From an uncultured Eubacteriales bacterium (GTDB taxonomy: Bacteria; Bacillota; Clostridia; Oscillospirales; Oscillospiraceae), in the NCBI GenBank assembly GCA_900554705.1, contig USIH01000044.1, positions 1 through 13,621 of the forward strand: a stretch of DNA of 13,621 nt. The letters are read 5' to 3'. This document shows positions 2,414 to 13,494 of this stretch, one piece after another. The position numbers and the translations under genes were made by a program. Position 1 is the first letter of the stretch, and every line of letters begins with the position of its first letter. The notes below the pieces were generated by a model, which did no database searches, had not been told where the DNA came from, and saw nothing but the letters and a program-made list of their open reading frames with translations.

Positions 2414-7271
<4,858 letters not shown>

Positions 7272-7282
<11 letters not shown>

Positions 7283-8294
7283 GGCGTCCACCTCCCGTCA
7301 GAAGCAGATACAGGAAGATCGGCGCGCCGACAAAGGCCGTCAGGATGCCCAGCGGCAGCTCGCCGGTGTAGGCAAGGCGCGCAATGTCGTCCACGACGAC
7401 GAGAAACGCCGCGCCGAACAGCGCCGCAGCGGGCAGCAGCCGCCGATAGTCGTAGCCGAAGAGCATTCGGCAGAAGTGCGGAATGACCAGACCGATCCAG
7501 CCGATCATGCCGGAGACGGCCACGGAGGCGGCGGTCAGGAGCGTCGCGCAGACGATCACCGCCAGACGCAGCAGGCGGGTGTTGACGCCCATGGAGCGCG
7601 CCTCCTCGTCGCCGAGCGTCAGCAGGTTCATGCGCCAGCTCAAAACGAGCAGCGGCACAAGCCCCAGAGCGACGGGAAGGACGAGGAAGAGCACGTCGCG
7701 CGGCTTGATCGACGACAGGCTACCCATGAGCCAGTAGGTGATGGCGGGAAGCTGCTGCTGCGTGTCGGCGACGAGCTTCACGTAAGAGGTCGCGGCGGAG
7801 AACAGGGAGGAGATCATCATGCCCGCCAGAATGAGCGCGACGGTCTGGTTCGTGCGGCTCAGGCAGCTGACCAGATAGGCCGCCGCCACGGCCAGCAGGC
7901 CGAAGCAGAAGGCCGTCAGCGAAATGCCGAAATAGCCCGCGCCGAGCAGGATGGCCAGCGCCGCGCCGAAGCCCGCGCCGGTCGATGCGCCCAGGATGTC
8001 CGGCGAGACCATGGGGTTGCGGAACATCCCCTGATAGGAAACGCCCGCGACCGCGAGCGCCGCGCCGACGAGCGCCGCCGCCGCGATGCGCGGCAGGCGG
8101 ATCTGAAAGACGACGGTCTGCGCCCCGTCGCGCCAGTTCGGCTCCACGCGGACAAAGCGGGACAGGAGCAGCCGCAGCAGCTCTCTCGGCGTAACGGAAA
8201 AGCGCCCGAGCATCCCCGAAAGGAACAGCACAAGCAGAAACACGACGGTCAGCGCGGCAAAGCGGCGGCGATAGAGGTGTGATCGTTTCATCAT
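7272..8294 (-). CDS. FecCD-family ABC transporter permease
   Basis: This is the polytopic inner subunit that moves iron-siderophore, haem, cobalamin or a related metal chelate through the membrane. The 340 residues show about ten hydrophobic spans and the family landmarks. These are RLPRIAAAALVGAALAVAGVSYQGMFRNPMVSPDILG (about 67-102), GWIGLVIPHFCRMLFGYDYR (265-284) and the C-terminal DDIARLAYTGELPLGILTAFVGAPIFLYLLL (302-332). A single permease gene fits the BtuC/FhuB-half type that works as a homodimer. Its ATG (8294) overlaps the DUF2149 stop as ATGA; ATG 8291 is an alternative. The ligand cannot be read from the sequence. Composition matches the rest of segment C. Confidence 0.93.
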
Positions 8295-8620
8295 TTCCCG
8301 TTTTCTATGATGTAGTACTTGCCCGTGGCGGCATCGTAGTAGACCTCGCCGAGCTTTTCCATGCCGTCCGCCGCATCCTGCGGCTCGGAGGTGACGATGT
8401 CCAGCTCTTCGGGCGTGAAGGTGACGGCCTGATCGCGGTCGATCCTGCTCTGCCCGTCCGTCGGCTCGGCCTTGCCGCCCGCGGAAAGGTCAACGTTCCA
8501 GTGGACGATCAGGGCGAGCATCATGCCCACGGCAAGCACGAGCATGGCGTCGGAAAGGTTGGACAGGTAGTTCATCGGATCGACGCTCTCCTCGGAGAAG
8601 CGGTGCTTTCTTCTTCTCAT
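8291..8620 (-). CDS. DUF2149 family protein, ExbD-like single-span partner
   Basis: The 109-residue product has a charged N-terminus, one membrane span (about 22-42, NLSDAMLVLAVGMMLALIV) and a polar C-terminal part ending LGEVYYDAATGKYYIIENGK. This layout and the closing LGxVYxxxxGxxxxI pattern fit DUF2149, a family usually encoded beside MotA/TolQ/ExbB-type channels. Asp24 at the mouth of the span sits in a DxMLVL context like the proton-accepting Asp25 of ExbD (resemblance by eye). I infer that it is the ion-pathway partner of the channel protein encoded just upstream, whose stop it overlaps as ATGA. Start ATG 8620 was chosen for that overlap; a longer open frame extends to 8887 but runs through the channel gene. 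Confidence 0.8.
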   Translation of the reverse strand: MRRRKHRFSEESVDPMNYLSNLSDAMLVLAVGMMLALIVHWNVDLSAGGKAEPTDGQSRIDRDQAVTFTPEELDIVTSEPQDAADGMEKLGEVYYDAATGKYYIIENGK

Positions 8621-9240
8621 CGTTTCGTTTCCCTTTCGCATACGCAGTCGCTCAGCGTCTCCAGATCGGCCATGTAGCCGTTGTACCAGCGCTTGCGCAG
8701 CGTGGTCACGACCAGACACACCGCCGCGGCGCACAGACCGGCGATGGTGGTGTCGAAGGCGGTCAGGAGGGAGACCGAGAGGGTGTGCGTGTCGCCCTGT
8801 CCCAGCGCGATGATGCCGGGGCCGAGCGGGATCAGCGTGCCCAGCAGGCCGAACATCGGCGCGAGCTTGCTGACCAGCTCCGTGCACTTGAGGATGCGGT
8901 CATAGTGGCTCTGCTCATGCTCGAGCAGGTTCTCGGCAAGGCTTCTGCGCAGCTCGTCCGTAAATTCGGGATGGCGCGTCAGCTCGATGAGCATCGCCTT
9001 CTGCCGCCGGTTGAGCAGGCTTTCGCGGATCGTCGCCTCCGGATCGGTCTGCGGCGCGCGCAGCCGGTCGAGCAGCGGGGGAAGCGCCTGCTTCATATGC
9101 CGCCGCTCCGTGAAATACTCGCACAGGAGCCAGCCGACGGAAAACGCGGCAAAGGCCAGCACAAGGACAAGGAAGATCACGTCGGGGAGCTCCATCGCGC
9201 GCGCGACGGCGCGCAGAACGTCATGAAACACGGAAGTCAT
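8617..9240 (-). CDS. MotA/TolQ/ExbB-type proton channel family protein
   Basis: The 207-residue membrane protein follows the ExbB/TolQ plan: one N-terminal span (about 20-40), a large cytoplasmic loop rich in charged residues (45-120), and two further spans (about 127-147 and 163-183). The diagnostic stretch KLAPMFGLLGTLIPLGPGII (125-144), followed by SVSLLTAFDTTIAGLCAA (155-172), corresponds to the ExbB GLLGTV and LTTAxGL motifs. Such proteins couple ion flow to mechanical work by an ExbD/TolR partner; here the partner is probably the DUF2149 protein encoded next. In diderm bacteria they power TonB-dependent outer-membrane uptake, so its place in a probable monoderm's transporter operon is notable. 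ATGA overlaps occur at both ends. Confidence 0.87.
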   Translation of the reverse strand: MTSVFHDVLRAVARAMELPDVIFLVLVLAFAAFSVGWLLCEYFTERRHMKQALPPLLDRLRAPQTDPEATIRESLLNRRQKAMLIELTRHPEFTDELRRSLAENLLEHEQSHYDRILKCTELVSKLAPMFGLLGTLIPLGPGIIALGQGDTHTLSVSLLTAFDTTIAGLCAAAVCLVVTTLRKRWYNGYMADLETLSDCVCERETKR

Positions 9241-10676
9241 TTCTCTTTCCTCCCATTGGAATAGTAGCGCAGCGCGCTCAGCGCGCCAAGAACGGCCAGC
9301 GCGAGCGCTCCCGCGCCGGTCAGAAGCAGCAGGCGGCCGTCATCCTCCTGCGGCACGGTAAGCCGGGTCACGGGGTGCGACACGGCCGCCGCGCTGCCGT
9401 CGCCGCCGGTCTGCGCGTCGTCCTGCCTGCCGCCGGCAAGCTGCGCGGCCAGCGCGTCGCTCAGGGCATACATACGAACCGGCTCCTCGGTCGGCTCCGT
9501 CGGTTCGGTCGGCTCCGGCGGCTCCGGCGGCTCCGGCCTGCCGTTCTGCGTCGGGCCGCTCGGCCCCACGGGGGCTTCGGTCGGCTCGGTGGGCGACGGT
9601 TCGCCGCCGTTCGTGCCGCTGCCGGTGTCGCCCGTCGGCTGCGCGGTCGGCGGCTCCGTCGGCTCCGTCGGTTCGGTGGGCGCGGGATCATGCGTGCGCA
9701 CCTCCGTGCGCTCCGCCATCGCCGCGCCGCCGAAGAGGAACGACAGCTCCGCGCTGCCCTCGGTGTGCACCGTGTAGGTGAGCGTCACCGTGGCAAGGTC
9801 GGAAAACTCCGCATCCGGCGTCACCGTAATGCCCGTGATCTCCAAAACGGAGCTGTCCGACGAGGAAATGTTCAAAAACTGCGCCAGCGCGTCGCGCAGC
9901 GCCTGCTGCCCCACGGAGACGCGGAAGGCGACGCTGTGCGAGCCGATCTCGCCGTCAAACTCCGGCAGCTCGTCGCACACCTTCGGCGCGCCTTGCAGCG
10001 TGATGTAGAGCGTGTGCGTATATTTCGCGCTCTGGTTCGTGCGGCACTCCATCGGATAGGACTGCCCGAAGAGCAGGCGGAAGCGGTTGCCCGTGCCGAG
10101 CGAGGCGTAGTTCGGCGCGGTGTGCTCCGTGCCGATCTCATAGCTCACCCAGCTGTCCTCCAAGGCCAGCATCGGCTGCACCGTCCGGCAGTCGCCCCAC
10201 GCTTCGTCCGCGTTATACTCGACAAAATTGCCCGCCTCGTCATATACGGGGCGGATGTGCGCGGCAAGGTCATTAAAATAGTAGCGCTCCGTGTAAAACA
10301 GATCGGCGGCGGTGAAGGAGGTGAAAAAGCCCACGTCCTGATCCTGCGTGTAGAAGGCGATGCTCTGCACGTCGCCGCTGTAAACACCGGCGTAGTCGAG
10401 CAGATCGGTCAGGTAAAAGCCATAGGCCGAGTCGATCACCGTGCGGTAGTCGCCGTCCGTCCCGCTGCGGAAGAAGGAATAGGCGTTTTGATAGAGGGGC
10501 AGGGCGTTATAAAGCTCGCTCCAGTGGTAGGAGCCGACCTGCACATACCGCTCCGTTTCCATGCCGAAGTAGCCGACCTTGACGGTCAGCGTATCCGTCA
10601 CGGTGCCGGCCGCACGGGCGCGCGGCGGTATCAGGCACAAAAGCAGCAGCAGGCACAGCGCGAGGAACCGTTTCAT
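9237..10676 (-). CDS. Secreted, membrane-anchored surface protein with Thr-Glu-Pro stalk
   Basis: I do not recognise a named family with certainty. The 479 residues show a signal peptide (MKRFLALCLLLLLCLIPPRARA, cleavage near 22-23), an extracellular region rich in Tyr and Phe (about 25-325), and a Pro/Thr/Glu/Gly-rich stalk (331-400, repeated TEP and PEP). A single transmembrane span (about 448-469) and a short basic tail (RYYSNGRKEK) end it. The part around 85-230 (SAYGFYLTDLLDYAG, then FRLLFGQSYPMECRTN) weakly resembles sulfite-oxidase/YedY-like molybdopterin-binding folds; this is a hint only. AAAGGAG lies 7 nt before ATG 10676. It sits between the binding protein (13 nt upstream) and the ExbB-like gene (ATGA overlap), so it may be the cell-surface receptor or force-receiving partner of the system. 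Confidence 0.8.
   Translation of the reverse strand: MKRFLALCLLLLLCLIPPRARAAGTVTDTLTVKVGYFGMETERYVQVGSYHWSELYNALPLYQNAYSFFRSGTDGDYRTVIDSAYGFYLTDLLDYAGVYSGDVQSIAFYTQDQDVGFFTSFTAADLFYTERYYFNDLAAHIRPVYDEAGNFVEYNADEAWGDCRTVQPMLALEDSWVSYEIGTEHTAPNYASLGTGNRFRLLFGQSYPMECRTNQSAKYTHTLYITLQGAPKVCDELPEFDGEIGSHSVAFRVSVGQQALRDALAQFLNISSSDSSVLEITGITVTPDAEFSDLATVTLTYTVHTEGSAELSFLFGGAAMAERTEVRTHDPAPTEPTEPTEPPTAQPTGDTGSGTNGGEPSPTEPTEAPVGPSGPTQNGRPEPPEPPEPTEPTEPTEEPVRMYALSDALAAQLAGGRQDDAQTGGDGSAAAVSHPVTRLTVPQEDDGRLLLLTGAGALALAVLGALSALRYYSNGRKEK
9474..9687 (-). repeat. Low-complexity Thr-Glu-Pro/Pro-Glu-Pro coding repeat
   Basis: Irregular iterations of a 9-nt unit (minus strand, ACCGAGCCG and variants) encode the stalk of the surface protein. 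They occur in two blocks separated by a Gly/Ser-rich spacer. Such blocks expand and contract by slippage, so the unit number may vary between strains and is prone to assembly collapse. Confidence 0.75.
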
Positions 10677-10689
10677 ATCGCAGCTCCTT

Positions 10690-11763
10690 TCAGGACTTCA
10701 GGGTCGAGCGCGAGAGCATCTCCCGCGCCTCTTCTTCCGAGAGCGAATAGTGCCAGAACAGCGCATAGAAGCGCTGCGCCTGCTGCACCATGTCGTAGTC
10801 AAACAGCTCCGGGTACAGGAGGTTTCCCAGCCAGTAGATGCCCAGCACGCGGTTGACCGACGGCGGCGAGGACATCCAGTCGTAGGGAAGGTTCGGGATC
10901 TCGTAATACGCGCCGTTCTTCACGGCGGTCAGCTCCGACCATTCGCTTCGGGCAAGCGTGTCGTAGGGACCGCCCGCCGACAGGAGGATCACGTCGGGGT
11001 CGCAGAGATAGACCTGCTCCAAATTGACCGTGGTGCCGCCGTTGCGGTTGCTGATCTCGTCGCTTTGGATCGCGTTGACCGCGCCGACGACGGCAAGGAT
11101 GTCGGCCTGCACGGAGCCTTCGGCATTGCAGGCAAGGCCGGTCGAGCCGGTGCCGAACAGGACGCGCTTGCGCTCGGCAAGCGGGATGCGCGCGACGTTC
11201 CGCTCCGCCATGCGCAGCGTCTCCTCAATATAAGAGGCCAATTCCTCCGCCTGCTCCTCGCGCCCCAGCAGGACGCCGAGCTTGCGGTAGGCCTCGGGCA
11301 TTTTTTCCAGCGTCGCCTCGATGAAGACCGTCGGGATGCCCGTCTGCTTCTGAATGCCGCGCATATCGTCCGCGATGCTCTCCTTGGCGTCGCCGAGGTC
11401 GATGATGATCTGCGGGCGGGCGGCGATGAGCGATTCCATGTTCAGGTTCGCCTTGCTGCCGTAGAACTGCCCGAAGGTGGGAAGCGTCCACATCTGCTCC
11501 GGAAAATACGGCATCTGCGCCGTGCTGGGGCTGCTGGCAAGCCCCACAAGAAGCTCCGGCGCGAGCGTCATGAGGATCATCTGCGCCGTGGAGCCGCTGG
11601 CCGCCACGCGCGTGATCTCCGCCGGAACGGTCACGTCGCGCCCGCAGTCGTCGGAGAACACCGTCGTGTCCGCACCCTTCAGCGGGTCGTAGGACGGCGC
11701 GGCGCGGCAGGCGCACAGGAGGAGCAGCGCAAGGCTGAGCAGCAGGGCGAGCGTTCGTTTCAT
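10690..11763 (-). CDS. ABC transporter substrate-binding lipoprotein (FecB/BtuF type)
   Basis: This is the extracellular solute-binding component that hands a metal chelate or cofactor to the FecCD permease encoded in the same operon. A lipoprotein signal ends LLLLCAC with the lipidated cysteine probably at residue 19. The Peripla_BP_2 fold is recognisable from VTVPAEITRVAASGSTAQMILMTLAPELLVGLAS (44-77), ESLIAARPQIIIDLG (110-124) and the C-terminal lobe helix region MSSPPSVNRVLGIYWLGNLLYPELF (297-321). Length 357 is normal. GGAGG lies 6 nt before ATG 11763, just downstream of an intrinsic terminator in the leader, so expression is probably set by transcription attenuation. The ligand (iron siderophore, haem, cobalamin or other) cannot be assigned; the leader does not match the cobalamin riboswitch I know. 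Confidence 0.93.
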   Translation of the reverse strand: MKRTLALLLSLALLLLCACRAAPSYDPLKGADTTVFSDDCGRDVTVPAEITRVAASGSTAQMILMTLAPELLVGLASSPSTAQMPYFPEQMWTLPTFGQFYGSKANLNMESLIAARPQIIIDLGDAKESIADDMRGIQKQTGIPTVFIEATLEKMPEAYRKLGVLLGREEQAEELASYIEETLRMAERNVARIPLAERKRVLFGTGSTGLACNAEGSVQADILAVVGAVNAIQSDEISNRNGGTTVNLEQVYLCDPDVILLSAGGPYDTLARSEWSELTAVKNGAYYEIPNLPYDWMSSPPSVNRVLGIYWLGNLLYPELFDYDMVQQAQRFYALFWHYSLSEEEAREMLSRSTLKS

Positions 11764-11953
11764 GGAATGCCTCCGTTCAAAAAAAGCACGGATAACCAGA
11801 GGTTATCCGTGAGCATACTTCCACCATAGTAAAATCACAGACTTCCTTCTCAAAACACGGAAGGCCGCACTGTTTCCGGCGCGACCCTTTGTACCGACGG
11901 TACCGGATGCCGACCCTTGGCGGACCGCTTTAGGTTCGGCATCTCCGGAAATC
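11764..11953 (-). ncRNA. Structured leader RNA, candidate riboswitch of unidentified class
   Basis: Between the predicted start (about 11953) and the binding-protein ribosome site lies a foldable leader. P1: 11951-11945 (TTTCCGG) pairs with 11879-11873 (CCGGAAA). Inside it are P2, 11943-11936 with 11913-11906 (GATGCCGA/TCGGCATC), and P3, 11903-11899 with 11895-11891 (GTACC/GGTAC), giving a three-way junction with purine-rich joiners such as AAAGGG. Downstream a hairpin CTTCC/GGAAG (11863-11859 with 11846-11842) competes with a possible antiterminator (TCCGTG 11861-11856 pairing CACGGA 11811-11806), which in turn excludes the terminator. I could not match it to TPP, FMN, cobalamin, SAM, Moco, fluoride or c-di-GMP consensus features from memory. 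The folding was done by eye. Confidence 0.6.
11779..11811 (-). terminator. Intrinsic terminator in the leader (attenuator)
   Basis: On the minus strand an 11-bp perfect stem (CACGGATAACC with GGTTATCCGTG, loop TCT) is followed by C and a run of seven T. It ends 5 nt before the GGAGG ribosome site of the binding-protein gene, so it terminates transcripts before the operon unless an alternative structure forms. Confidence 0.9.
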
Positions 11954-11959
11954 AATTCT

Positions 11960-11988
11960 ATGATACAATGCGCCCTACGAAAAAGCAA
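11960..11988 (-). promoter_or_regulatory. Probable promoter of the uptake operon
   Basis: On the minus strand TTGCTT (11988-11983), a 17-bp spacer and TATCAT (11965-11960) give a reasonable sigma-A promoter (-10 matches 5 of 6). The predicted start lies just before the leader's P1 stem. It is back to back with the promoter at 12000-12028. Confidence 0.6.
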
Positions 11989-11999
11989 GCGATTTTTTC

Positions 12000-12028
12000 T
12001 TGCATTTTCCCGCGCCGACTGGTATGTT
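12000..12028 (+). promoter_or_regulatory. Possible promoter of the phosphoesterase-iclR pair
   Basis: TTGCAT (12000-12005), 17 bp, then TATGTT (12023-12028) with TGG directly before the -10 (extended -10 type). Matches are moderate. It lies about 45 bp upstream of ATG 12074. Confidence 0.5.
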
Positions 12029-12073
12029 AAAATGGGAGCGCCGGAGAATGCGGCGCGGAAAGGGGCGCTTGGC

Positions 12074-12709
12074 ATGATCTTCTACACGGCGGATCTGCAC
12101 CTTGGCTATTTCCCCATCCTGCACGACACGGCGCGCCCGTTTGCGAGCGTCGAGCAGATGGATCGGGTGCTCATCGACAACTGGAACGCGCGCGTCGGCA
12201 GGGACGACACGGTCTACATCGTCGGGGACTTTTCCTACAACGGCGGCGAGGCGCCGACGCAGTATCTTTCGCGCCTGAACGGCACGCTCCACCTGATCCG
12301 CGGCAACCACGACACGGGACTGCGCAACGCGGAGCGCCTGCTGGACTACTGCCGGAGCGTCACCGATTTTTTGGAGATCGACGACGGGGACTGTCACATC
12401 CTCCTGTGCCACTACCCGATCCTGCACGAAAAGGGCGGCTATATGATCCACGGCCACATCCACAACCGGCGCAACCATGCCTACGAGATCCTCAAGACGC
12501 TGCCCCGCGTGCTCAACGCCGGAACGGACATCAATTTCTACAGGCCTGTCACGCTGCAGGAGCTGATCGAAAACAACCGAAAATACTACAGCGAGGAATA
12601 TCCGCAGCTCTTCCCGATCCCGCCCGAGCCGGATCGGAACGCGCCCGGGCGGATGCCGCGCAGGCCGGATTTCCGGCCGCTGCCGCAGCGAAAGGAGAAT
12701 ACGCTATGA
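12074..12709 (+). CDS. Calcineurin-like metallophosphoesterase family protein
   Basis: This is probably a cytoplasmic two-metal phosphoesterase; the substrate is unknown. The 211 residues carry the full metal-binding set: DLH (D7, H9), GDFS (G51-D52), GNHD (77-80), H113 in LLCHYP, and GHIH (127-130). The fold ends near residue 175; the last 35 residues (PPEPDRNAPGRMPRRPDFRPLPQRK) are Pro/Arg-rich and probably disordered. An open frame continues upstream to 11960, but ATG 12074 gives the usual MIFYTADLHLGY start and has AAAGGGG 8 nt upstream. The gene overlaps the IclR gene by ATGA, so the two are translated together. Small phosphoesterases of this type (LCHYPI, GHIHN motifs) are common in bacteria and phages. 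Confidence 0.88.
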   Translation: MIFYTADLHLGYFPILHDTARPFASVEQMDRVLIDNWNARVGRDDTVYIVGDFSYNGGEAPTQYLSRLNGTLHLIRGNHDTGLRNAERLLDYCRSVTDFLEIDDGDCHILLCHYPILHEKGGYMIHGHIHNRRNHAYEILKTLPRVLNAGTDINFYRPVTLQELIENNRKYYSEEYPQLFPIPPEPDRNAPGRMPRRPDFRPLPQRKENTL

Positions 12710-13494
12710 AAGAACCCAAGGGCGAGATCCGCTCGGTCGGAAAGGCGATGGAGCTGCTGGAGCTGTTTTTCGCGTGGCGCAAGCCCATGAGCCTCCAGCA
12801 GCTGGCCGAGGCGACGCAGTACCCCAAGAGCACGGTGCACAGCCTGCTTGCCACCCTGCGCGAATACGGCGTGGTCATGCAGGAGGAGAGCGGGCGGTAC
12901 TATCTCGGCGCGCGCCTTTACGAATACGGCTGCGCCGCCGCCGCCTCGTGGGACGCCGCCGCGCTGGCGCGCCCGCGGCTGGAGCATCTGGCCGAAAAGC
13001 TCGGCGCGAGCGCCTTTATCTCCCTTATGGAAAACGGCTATGTGATCTCCTTTGACCGCTGCACGCCGCACAGCGGCAGCGGCTATCAGATCTTTCCGGA
13101 GGTCGGAACGCGTCTGCCGCTGCACGCCACGGCGCAGGGCAAGCTCCTGCTCAGCACGCTGAGCGACGCGCAGGTGCTGCGCCTGCTCAAGCGCTACGGG
13201 ATGGCGCAGTTCACGCCCCATACCCTGACCGATCCGGAGCGCTTCCTTGCGCAGCTTGAGCGGATCCGCACGCAGGGCTACGCCGTGGAGGACGGAGAAT
13301 ATAAGATCGGCCTGCGCACCGTCGCCGCACCGGTCTGCGACTATACCGGCGCGGTCAAGTACGCCCTCGGCGTCGTCGGCCTCTTCCGCCGGATCGACAG
13401 CGTGGAATTTCGCCGCGCCGTCGAGCTGACCGTCGCGCAGGCGAAGCTGCTGTCCGCCGACCTGCGCTACCGGCCGGAGCCAAACGGGAAGTAA
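12706..13494 (+). CDS. IclR-family transcriptional regulator
   Basis: This is a one-component DNA-binding regulator of 262 residues, the normal family length. The N-terminal winged helix (about 7-68) includes SLQQLAEATQYPKSTVHSLLATLREYGVV. The C-terminal effector domain (about 85-250) carries the hallmark TRLPLHATAQGKLLLS (135-150) and GYAVEDGEYKIGLRTVAAPV (191-210). IclR proteins typically sense small carbon metabolites and act on neighbouring catabolic genes; the ligand here is unknown. AAAGGAG precedes ATG 12706, which overlaps the phosphoesterase stop (ATGA). Nothing in the sequence shows it binds the uptake promoter, although it lies in the divergent transcription unit. Confidence 0.93.
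   Translation: MKEPKGEIRSVGKAMELLELFFAWRKPMSLQQLAEATQYPKSTVHSLLATLREYGVVMQEESGRYYLGARLYEYGCAAAASWDAAALARPRLEHLAEKLGASAFISLMENGYVISFDRCTPHSGSGYQIFPEVGTRLPLHATAQGKLLLSTLSDAQVLRLLKRYGMAQFTPHTLTDPERFLAQLERIRTQGYAVEDGEYKIGLRTVAAPVCDYTGAVKYALGVVGLFRRIDSVEFRRAVELTVAQAKLLSADLRYRPEPNGK

Follow-up and report, generated by a model that had tools for sequence, protein, structure and literature searches.

The closest described counterpart of the RNA considered here is the Moco riboswitch class (Rfam RF01055). In the portions of Regulski et al., 2008 (PMC2408646) drawn on here, the molybdenum cofactor (Moco) is proposed as the ligand of this class, terminator-type expression platforms are reported for some of its members, occurrence ahead of molybdate transporters is part of the published pattern, and presence of the helix P3 is tied, as a correlation, to Moco and its absence to the tungsten cofactor (Tuco). 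On the protein side, the nearest described systems are MolBC-A of Haemophilus influenzae, a type II importer with a FecCD-fold permease (HI1471, i.e., MolB) that carries molybdate and whose MolA also binds tungstate (excerpted text of PMC4031551); the iron-responsive hmu heme operon (hmuYRSTUV) of Porphyromonas, from diderm bacteria, in which a MotA/TolQ/ExbB gene adjoins one coding for DUF2149 (excerpted text of PMC10434189); and PruR, a pterin-binding protein with the SUOX fold. We compared with these a 13,621-nucleotide stretch of an uncultured Eubacteriales bacterium of the Oscillospiraceae (contig USIH01000044.1, assembly GCA_900554705.1; hereinafter the window, meaning the entire stretch), whose minus strand carries a structured leader RNA followed by a six-gene operon. 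The leader shares with the RF01055 class its whole architecture, P3, a GAAA tetraloop, a terminator-type platform, and a position before molybdenum genes. It differs in what follows, namely a FecBCD/ExbB/DUF2149/surface-protein operon, a kind of operon unmentioned in those portions of PMC2408646. Very probably, the leader belongs to the Moco riboswitches that contain P3 and works at the level of transcription, as an OFF switch ahead of a predicted operon for uptake of a molybdenum compound. While the RNA itself is one more Moco riboswitch, it would give an uncharacterized importer, which comes with ExbB, DUF2149, and surface proteins, a role in molybdenum nutrition, and this operon is the part worth following.

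The leader RNA and its terminator

The leader spans the minus strand from about 11962 or 11953 to 11779, with the start codon downstream at 11763. Its overall fold is more stable than expected (z-score –3.0; equal stability in 1 of 200 shuffles). A cmscan search with all 4227 Rfam families matched positions 11962–11827 to RF01055 at 72.2 bits (gathering score 36, E 3.7e-16), covering model positions 1–135 of 135, and this was the sole family at gathering level across the window; a match to mir-2831, far under its own threshold, was discarded. By its sequence the leader is, then, an ordinary member of the known Moco (molybdenum/tungsten cofactor) riboswitch class. A first-pass annotation of the window had suggested that it could be a new or divergent class, an idea with nothing for it beyond the structure itself and to which, given a full-length match at twice the gathering score, we attach practically no credence. 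The closed junction that the same annotation had drawn by eye is a closed multi-stem junction with the known Moco architecture: P3 is present as a 5-bp hairpin (GUACC/GGUAC), and P4 carries a GNRA tetraloop (GAAA, 11876–11873). In the P2 bulge, where a tetraloop receptor would lie, the window reads CCUAAAG with CCAAGG, as against CCUAAGG with CUAUGG in the consensus of 33 relatives. Canonical pairing is retained at 36 of the 42 model pairs, and in 16 of those 36 both letters differ from the consensus.

Covariation in relatives points the same way. A model was built from 33 hand-chosen RNAs, excluding those that lack P3 and one 195-nt outlier (the rows L002 and L057 are the same RNA), and 40 matches were realigned to it. 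Two-sided changes were recovered in 34 of 39 pairs (P1 6/6, P2 13/15, P3 5/5, and P4 10/11), so that P1–P3, the helices on which the first-pass annotation had staked a conserved aptamer, do covary. The covariation score was 0.576, compared with 0.224 in shuffles and 0.12–0.16 (maximum 0.162) with slid partners, in an alignment that was fitted to the structure and therefore leans towards it.

The strong intrinsic terminator anticipated by the first-pass annotation ahead of the ribosome site is present: an 11-bp stem (11811–11787) is followed by 7 T at 11785–11779 (–16.3 kcal/mol, z-score –7.0), and none of 200 shuffles was as stable. An 8-bp pairing of GUCUGUGA (11842–11835) with UCACGGAU (11812–11805) competes with both the 3′ strand of P1 and the terminator. 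In predicted folding energies (kcal/mol), this antiterminator state stands at –59.3 versus –55.3 for the P1 state with the polymerase at 11800, and at –61.0 versus –55.3 with the polymerase at 11795; with the full terminator made, the lead passes to P1 plus terminator, at –67.3 versus –64.2 for the antiterminator state. Since the best fold before completion of the terminator breaks P1, and P1 plus terminator is best thereafter, a ligand that holds P1 should cause termination, and on these modeled energies the switch is likely of the OFF type. When the cofactor is scarce, 11842–11835 (the 3′ strand of P1 with adjoining bases) would pair with 11812–11805, blocking the terminator and allowing the operon to be transcribed; when it is bound, P1 would be held, the terminator would form, and transcription would end ahead of the ribosome site.

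The first-pass annotation had favored other pairings for the expression platform. Its UCCGUG/CACGGA antiterminator does exist as 6 bp, with –51.3 (polymerase at 11800), –55.6 (11795), and –58.9 (terminator complete); it is less stable than the 8-bp pairing throughout, lies 4.5 to 8.4 kcal/mol above the best state at six lengths, and beats P1 by 0.3 at 11795, and we retain it on these energies as the weaker alternative. Its hairpin at 11863–11842 (CUUCC/GGAAG) is likewise present and exclusive with P1, at 2.0 to 5.4 kcal/mol above the best state at four lengths. A promoter that it had deemed plausible can be placed by eye (TTGCTT at 11988–11983, 17 nt, and TATCAT at 11965–11960, with 3/6 and 5/6 consensus bases), which on this weak evidence would put the RNA start near 11953; a consensus promoter scan did not report this site, and its lone minus-strand site lies inside the aptamer (11853–11826). 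On the plus strand, a divergent metallophosphoesterase gene (11960–12709) has a listed ATG at 11960 that overlaps the leader, and a start at about 12074 seems likelier by eye.

Several points count against the leader working as such a switch. In the window copy, six of the 42 model pairs are disrupted, two of them among the three outer pairs of P1, and a start at the by-eye promoter would leave the outer pairs untranscribed. The energy gaps of 3 to 6 kcal/mol fall inside the prediction error and ignore kinetics. Riboswitch function as a whole, ligand response and termination included, is a prediction from sequence.

The operon and its association with Moco RNAs

Transcribed from the minus strand, the operon codes in order for a binding protein, a surface protein, an ExbB-like protein, a DUF2149 protein, a FecCD permease, and a truncated ATP-binding cassette (ABC) ATPase (Table 1). 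The first-pass claim of a terminator-controlled riboswitch ahead of a metal or cofactor uptake operon holds. All NCBIfam names for the operon proteins are sub-threshold. Against solved structures, the permease is closest to HI1471/MolB (2nq2_A, 246 bits), followed by FhuB (177), HmuU (169), and BtuC (156). The likeness to MolBC-A does not extend to the binding protein, for which 4pag is best (134 bits) and HI_1472, which we take to be MolA, ranks 10th of 19 with 30 bits; nor does it extend to ExbB, DUF2149, and the surface proteins, which the window operon adds. Compared with the hmu operon, CobN, the TonB receptor, and HmuY are not among the Pfam matches of the window operon. In DUF2149, the N, L, D, M, and L of the motif NLxDxML, including the membrane Asp, show no variation across the 25 sequences aligned; this membrane motif is reminiscent of ExbD and makes the protein a candidate ExbD-like partner of ExbB in a proton-driven pair.

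The surface protein is predicted to comprise a signal-like N-terminus, a domain (10613–9978) with a sulfite-oxidase/PruR-like (SUOX-like) fold, a second β domain, a Pro-rich linker, and a C-terminal membrane helix. It thereby differs from PruR in being larger and in having the membrane helix, second domain, and linker. The window protein has no Pfam match at 0.001; among 13 relatives, 8 match Big_2 and 4 weakly match Oxidored_molyb, at E up to 10. A sequence search of the PDB with the surface-protein profile recovered mainly Ig-like domains, with sulfite oxidase and PruR absent from the matches, and Foldseek linked the whole protein to antibody chains and found nothing significant for the SUOX-like domain alone. 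The conserved Cys of SUOX-family molybdoenzymes is found in none of the 21 invariant and 10 nearly invariant columns of the 13 sequences, 3 of which have no Cys in the domain at all.

Table 1. Features of the leader and operon in the window.
Feature	Position	Strand	Basis
Possible promoter	11960..11988	-	By eye; absent from consensus scan output
Moco riboswitch aptamer, RF01055	11827..11962	-	Covariance model, 72.2 bits
P1 inner helix, 11952-11947 with 11841-11846	11841..11952	-	Rfam alignment; two-sided changes in 6/6 pairs
P3 hairpin GUACC-GUC-GGUAC (free fold)	11890..11904	-	Rfam alignment, folding; Moco-versus-Tuco rule from excerpted text of PMC2408646
P4 with GAAA tetraloop 11876-11873	11862..11887	-	Rfam alignment; two-sided changes in 10/11 pairs
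Predicted antiterminator, exclusive with P1 and terminator	11805..11842	-	Folding energies
Intrinsic terminator, stem 11811-11787, T run 11785-11779	11779..11811	-	Shuffle test
Substrate-binding protein, 357 aa	10690..11763	-	Pfam Peripla_BP_2, 61.6 bits, cut-off 27.5
Surface protein, 479 aa	9237..10676	-	Predicted model; ends by eye and from model
MotA/TolQ/ExbB-family protein	8617..9240	-	PF01618, 47.4 bits, cut-off 22.9
DUF2149 protein, NLxDxML membrane motif	8291..8620	-	PF09919, 33.9 bits, cut-off 27.1
FecCD permease	7272..8294	-	PF01032, 297 bits
ABC ATPase gene, 5′ part, cut at signature motif	6858..7291	-	ABC_tran positions 1-119 of 137

At 6858–6878, rpoC (plus strand) ends and the ABC ATPase gene (minus strand) starts at a common 21-base word within the ATPase signature motif. 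This junction looks like an assembly chimera, in which case the operon and rpoB/rpoC may not truly adjoin; the riboswitch lies on one side of it together with the first five genes.

RF01055 recurs before importers of this kind. A scan of genome contigs with the binding protein recovered a single relative, L001, from an Oscillospiraceae bacterium of a red deer metagenome, and 400 genomes were sampled from its family (Oscillospiraceae), of which 135 have RF01055 and 24 have DUF2149. The RNA occurs in 16 of the 24 genomes with DUF2149 versus 119 of the 376 without it (Fisher 7e-4). At the level of loci (two of 30 places having been merged with tandem neighbors, and 66 RF01055 matches over the cut-off being used), it lies on the same strand and no more than 10 kb upstream at 7 of 28 DUF2149 loci, where 0.19 are expected, and within 5 kb at 4 of 28, where 0.09 are expected. 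We also surveyed the first open reading frames after the 30 best Moco RNAs, the 30th locus being exbB-DUF2149. The other 29 code for FecCD (3), SBP_bac_11 (7, of which 5 are over the NCBIfam modA cut-off and 2 slightly under it), MoeA/MoCF (6), molybdopterin oxidoreductase (2), and a MobA-like, a MobB, and a TOBE protein (1 each), with 4 others and 4 without a match.

On the other side of the ledger, 21 of the 28 DUF2149 loci have no RF01055 in the 10 kb upstream, several of them ending at a contig edge, and two of the seven RF01055–DUF2149 distances are as long as 9.7 and 10.0 kb. The Moco RNA is also absent from the L001 locus and its genome. Likewise, the complete six-gene operon closest to that of the window (L049 in genome G001), with the same order and 74, 54, 70, 57, 69, and 54% identity, has no RF01055 match either at the locus or anywhere in G001. 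The L001 locus (7011–10857) itself holds a paralogous binding protein-FecCD-ATPase set whose binding protein and permease are 70–71% identical to those of the window. An IclR gene lies directly upstream of that set, and the window has an IclR gene 54% identical to it at about 12700–13494, across the leader from the operon.

Candidate substrates of the predicted importer

We predict the operon to be an uptake system for a molybdenum compound, composed of a FecCD-type ABC importer, an ExbB/DUF2149 pair, and a surface protein, with Moco or molybdopterin and molybdate or tungstate as the candidate substrates; it may belong to an undescribed bacterial uptake system for molybdenum or for the finished cofactor. 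The first-pass ligand list included molybdate and heme and missed Moco, the ligand proposed for the class in the portions of PMC2408646 used here.

Molybdate or tungstate could be imported by a MolBC-A-like type II ABC importer, with ExbB/DUF2149 and the surface proteins as accessories and the riboswitch sensing a downstream product, an option we regard as plausible though rather less than probable. It is favored by the permease, whose match to MolB far exceeds the next one, and by the published placement of Moco RNAs before molybdate transporters, as given in the text of PMC2408646 drawn on. Further in its favor, contig C33 of genome G220 (L033, 2951–5131, minus strand) carries on the same strand exbB, DUF2149, a PF00174 gene, a Crp-like gene, and modA; the ModA scores 219 bits (NCBIfam cut-off 62.5) and the lipoprotein-like PF00174 protein of 164 aa scores 24.4 against a cut-off of 24. 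The distance of the binding protein from HI_1472 argues against molybdate, as does the consideration that molybdate alone has no evident use for genomes lacking MoaA, MoaC, and MoeA.

Such genomes bear on the alternative that the operon imports finished Moco or molybdopterin and that the riboswitch senses the transported compound itself, which we hold tentatively, as a sizeable possibility. The counts come from related genomes, the window's own genome not being among them; 15 of the 135 RF01055-positive genomes lie outside the MoaC test, and G163, with a sub-gathering match, lies outside the region test. In the 48 genomes tested for all three proteins, MoaA is missing in 15 of 15 without MoaC versus 1 of 33 with it, and MoeA in 8 of 15 versus 2 of 33; MoaC is missing from 14 of 80 further RF01055-positive genomes. 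Taken together, 24 MoaC-less genomes have 35 Moco RNAs at gathering level; we compared up to 5 kb downstream of every one of these with the same region of the 60 best-scored RNAs from 49 MoaC-positive genomes. FecCD lies downstream of 16/35 versus 9/60 RNAs (p=0.0016), corresponding to 16/24 versus 9/49 genomes (p=7.5e-5), and within the same score list of 11/21 versus 9/60 RNAs (p=0.002). By comparison, ModA-like genes follow 6/35 versus 18/60 RNAs, and MoeA, MoCF, MobB, or molybdopterin oxidoreductase 4/35 versus 27/60. Clustering at 70% identity divides the FecCD sequences into 15 groups (one gene, at L073 and L078, being counted twice among the 26 clustered), and the 16 MoaC-less cases spread over 9 of these; they are thus not one clade, though not independent. 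Molybdoenzyme-family proteins occur in 29 of 29 MoaC-less genomes examined (PF02738 in 25 and PF00384, a family that also includes proteins without Moco, in the other 4), and PF02738 in 18 of 25 MoaC-positive genomes examined alongside. Cofactor import is the reading suggested by a cell that requires Moco, is unable to make it, and keeps an importer under the control of a Moco sensor, and the FecCD enrichment together with the molybdoenzymes makes import of the finished cofactor a serious, if unproven, hypothesis, whose strongest competitor is molybdate import.

In such a mechanism, the SUOX-like domain would let the surface protein capture the pterin, ExbB/DUF2149 may draw on the proton gradient to free it or hand it on, and the FecBCD-type importer would bring it in as BtuCD does with B12. 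Stated in full, that gut Clostridia unable to make molybdopterin import Moco or molybdopterin via a SUOX-like surface receptor, an ExbB/DUF2149 motor, and a FecBCD-type importer that the riboswitch turns off when supply is sufficient, this is a conjecture in which we place limited confidence. Should the cofactor itself be what the importer carries, this would touch on a question left open in a 2022 paper on dietary Moco, and cofactor sharing would connect prototrophs with auxotrophs in gut communities. We know of no bacterial system for Moco import so far, and this would be the first. A search of open-licence PMC full text for "riboswitch", "molybdenum cofactor", and "FecCD" together found no paper.

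Weighing against cofactor import, the arrangement's presence in 9 of the 49 MoaC-positive genomes means that it is not confined to auxotrophs, and six MoaC-less genomes, including G300 and G362, which also lack MoeA, have a ModA-like gene after the Moco RNA, which suggests molybdate use or missing contigs. G001 has the operon without the RNA. The completeness of the MoaC-tested genomes is not given, the RNAs from MoaC-positive genomes were picked by score, and the relatedness of the genomes makes the Fisher values overstate independence. The SUOX-like domain, for its part, lacks both a significant Foldseek match and a conserved Cys, and the PruR site is described, in the excerpted text of PMC13259868, as probably too small for Moco. 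A MobA-like gene between the RNA and fecCD in G184 and G025 was considered as support for import and dropped, as this nucleotidyltransferase, which matches NTP_transf_3 with 105.8 and 106.1 bits, also matches an APH-like kinase (21.0, under the cut-off, and 31.8 bits, over it).

Import of heme, a corrinoid, or an iron chelate, with the Moco RNA providing cross-regulation, appears improbable. Heme, B12, and siderophore systems do turn up in NCBIfam as relatives of the binding protein and of the permease, all far under their cut-offs, and the ExbB–DUF2149 pair is shared with the hmu heme operon of Bacteroidetes (excerpted text of PMC10434189); against this, an Rfam scan of 34 loci gave solely RF01055 and tRNA, with no cobalamin riboswitch.

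Further Moco RNAs in related genomes

Moco RNAs also stand directly before genes for large surface proteins: two before dockerin proteins (L032, 2513–2659 and 5049–5192) and others before SLH proteins (L013, 1501–1641; L044, 4109–4261). Going by this placement, the Moco regulon seems to include surface proteins. No molybdopterin domain was found in five SLH or dockerin proteins encoded near such operons. In genome G055 (contig C48, 63454–68409), two Moco RNAs face each other, one before a FecCD operon and the other before an NTPase_1-like gene set. The contig of G220 with the exbB-DUF2149-modA cluster has eight gathering-level Moco RNAs in 59 kb (39187–98265), and there are 16 genome-wide.
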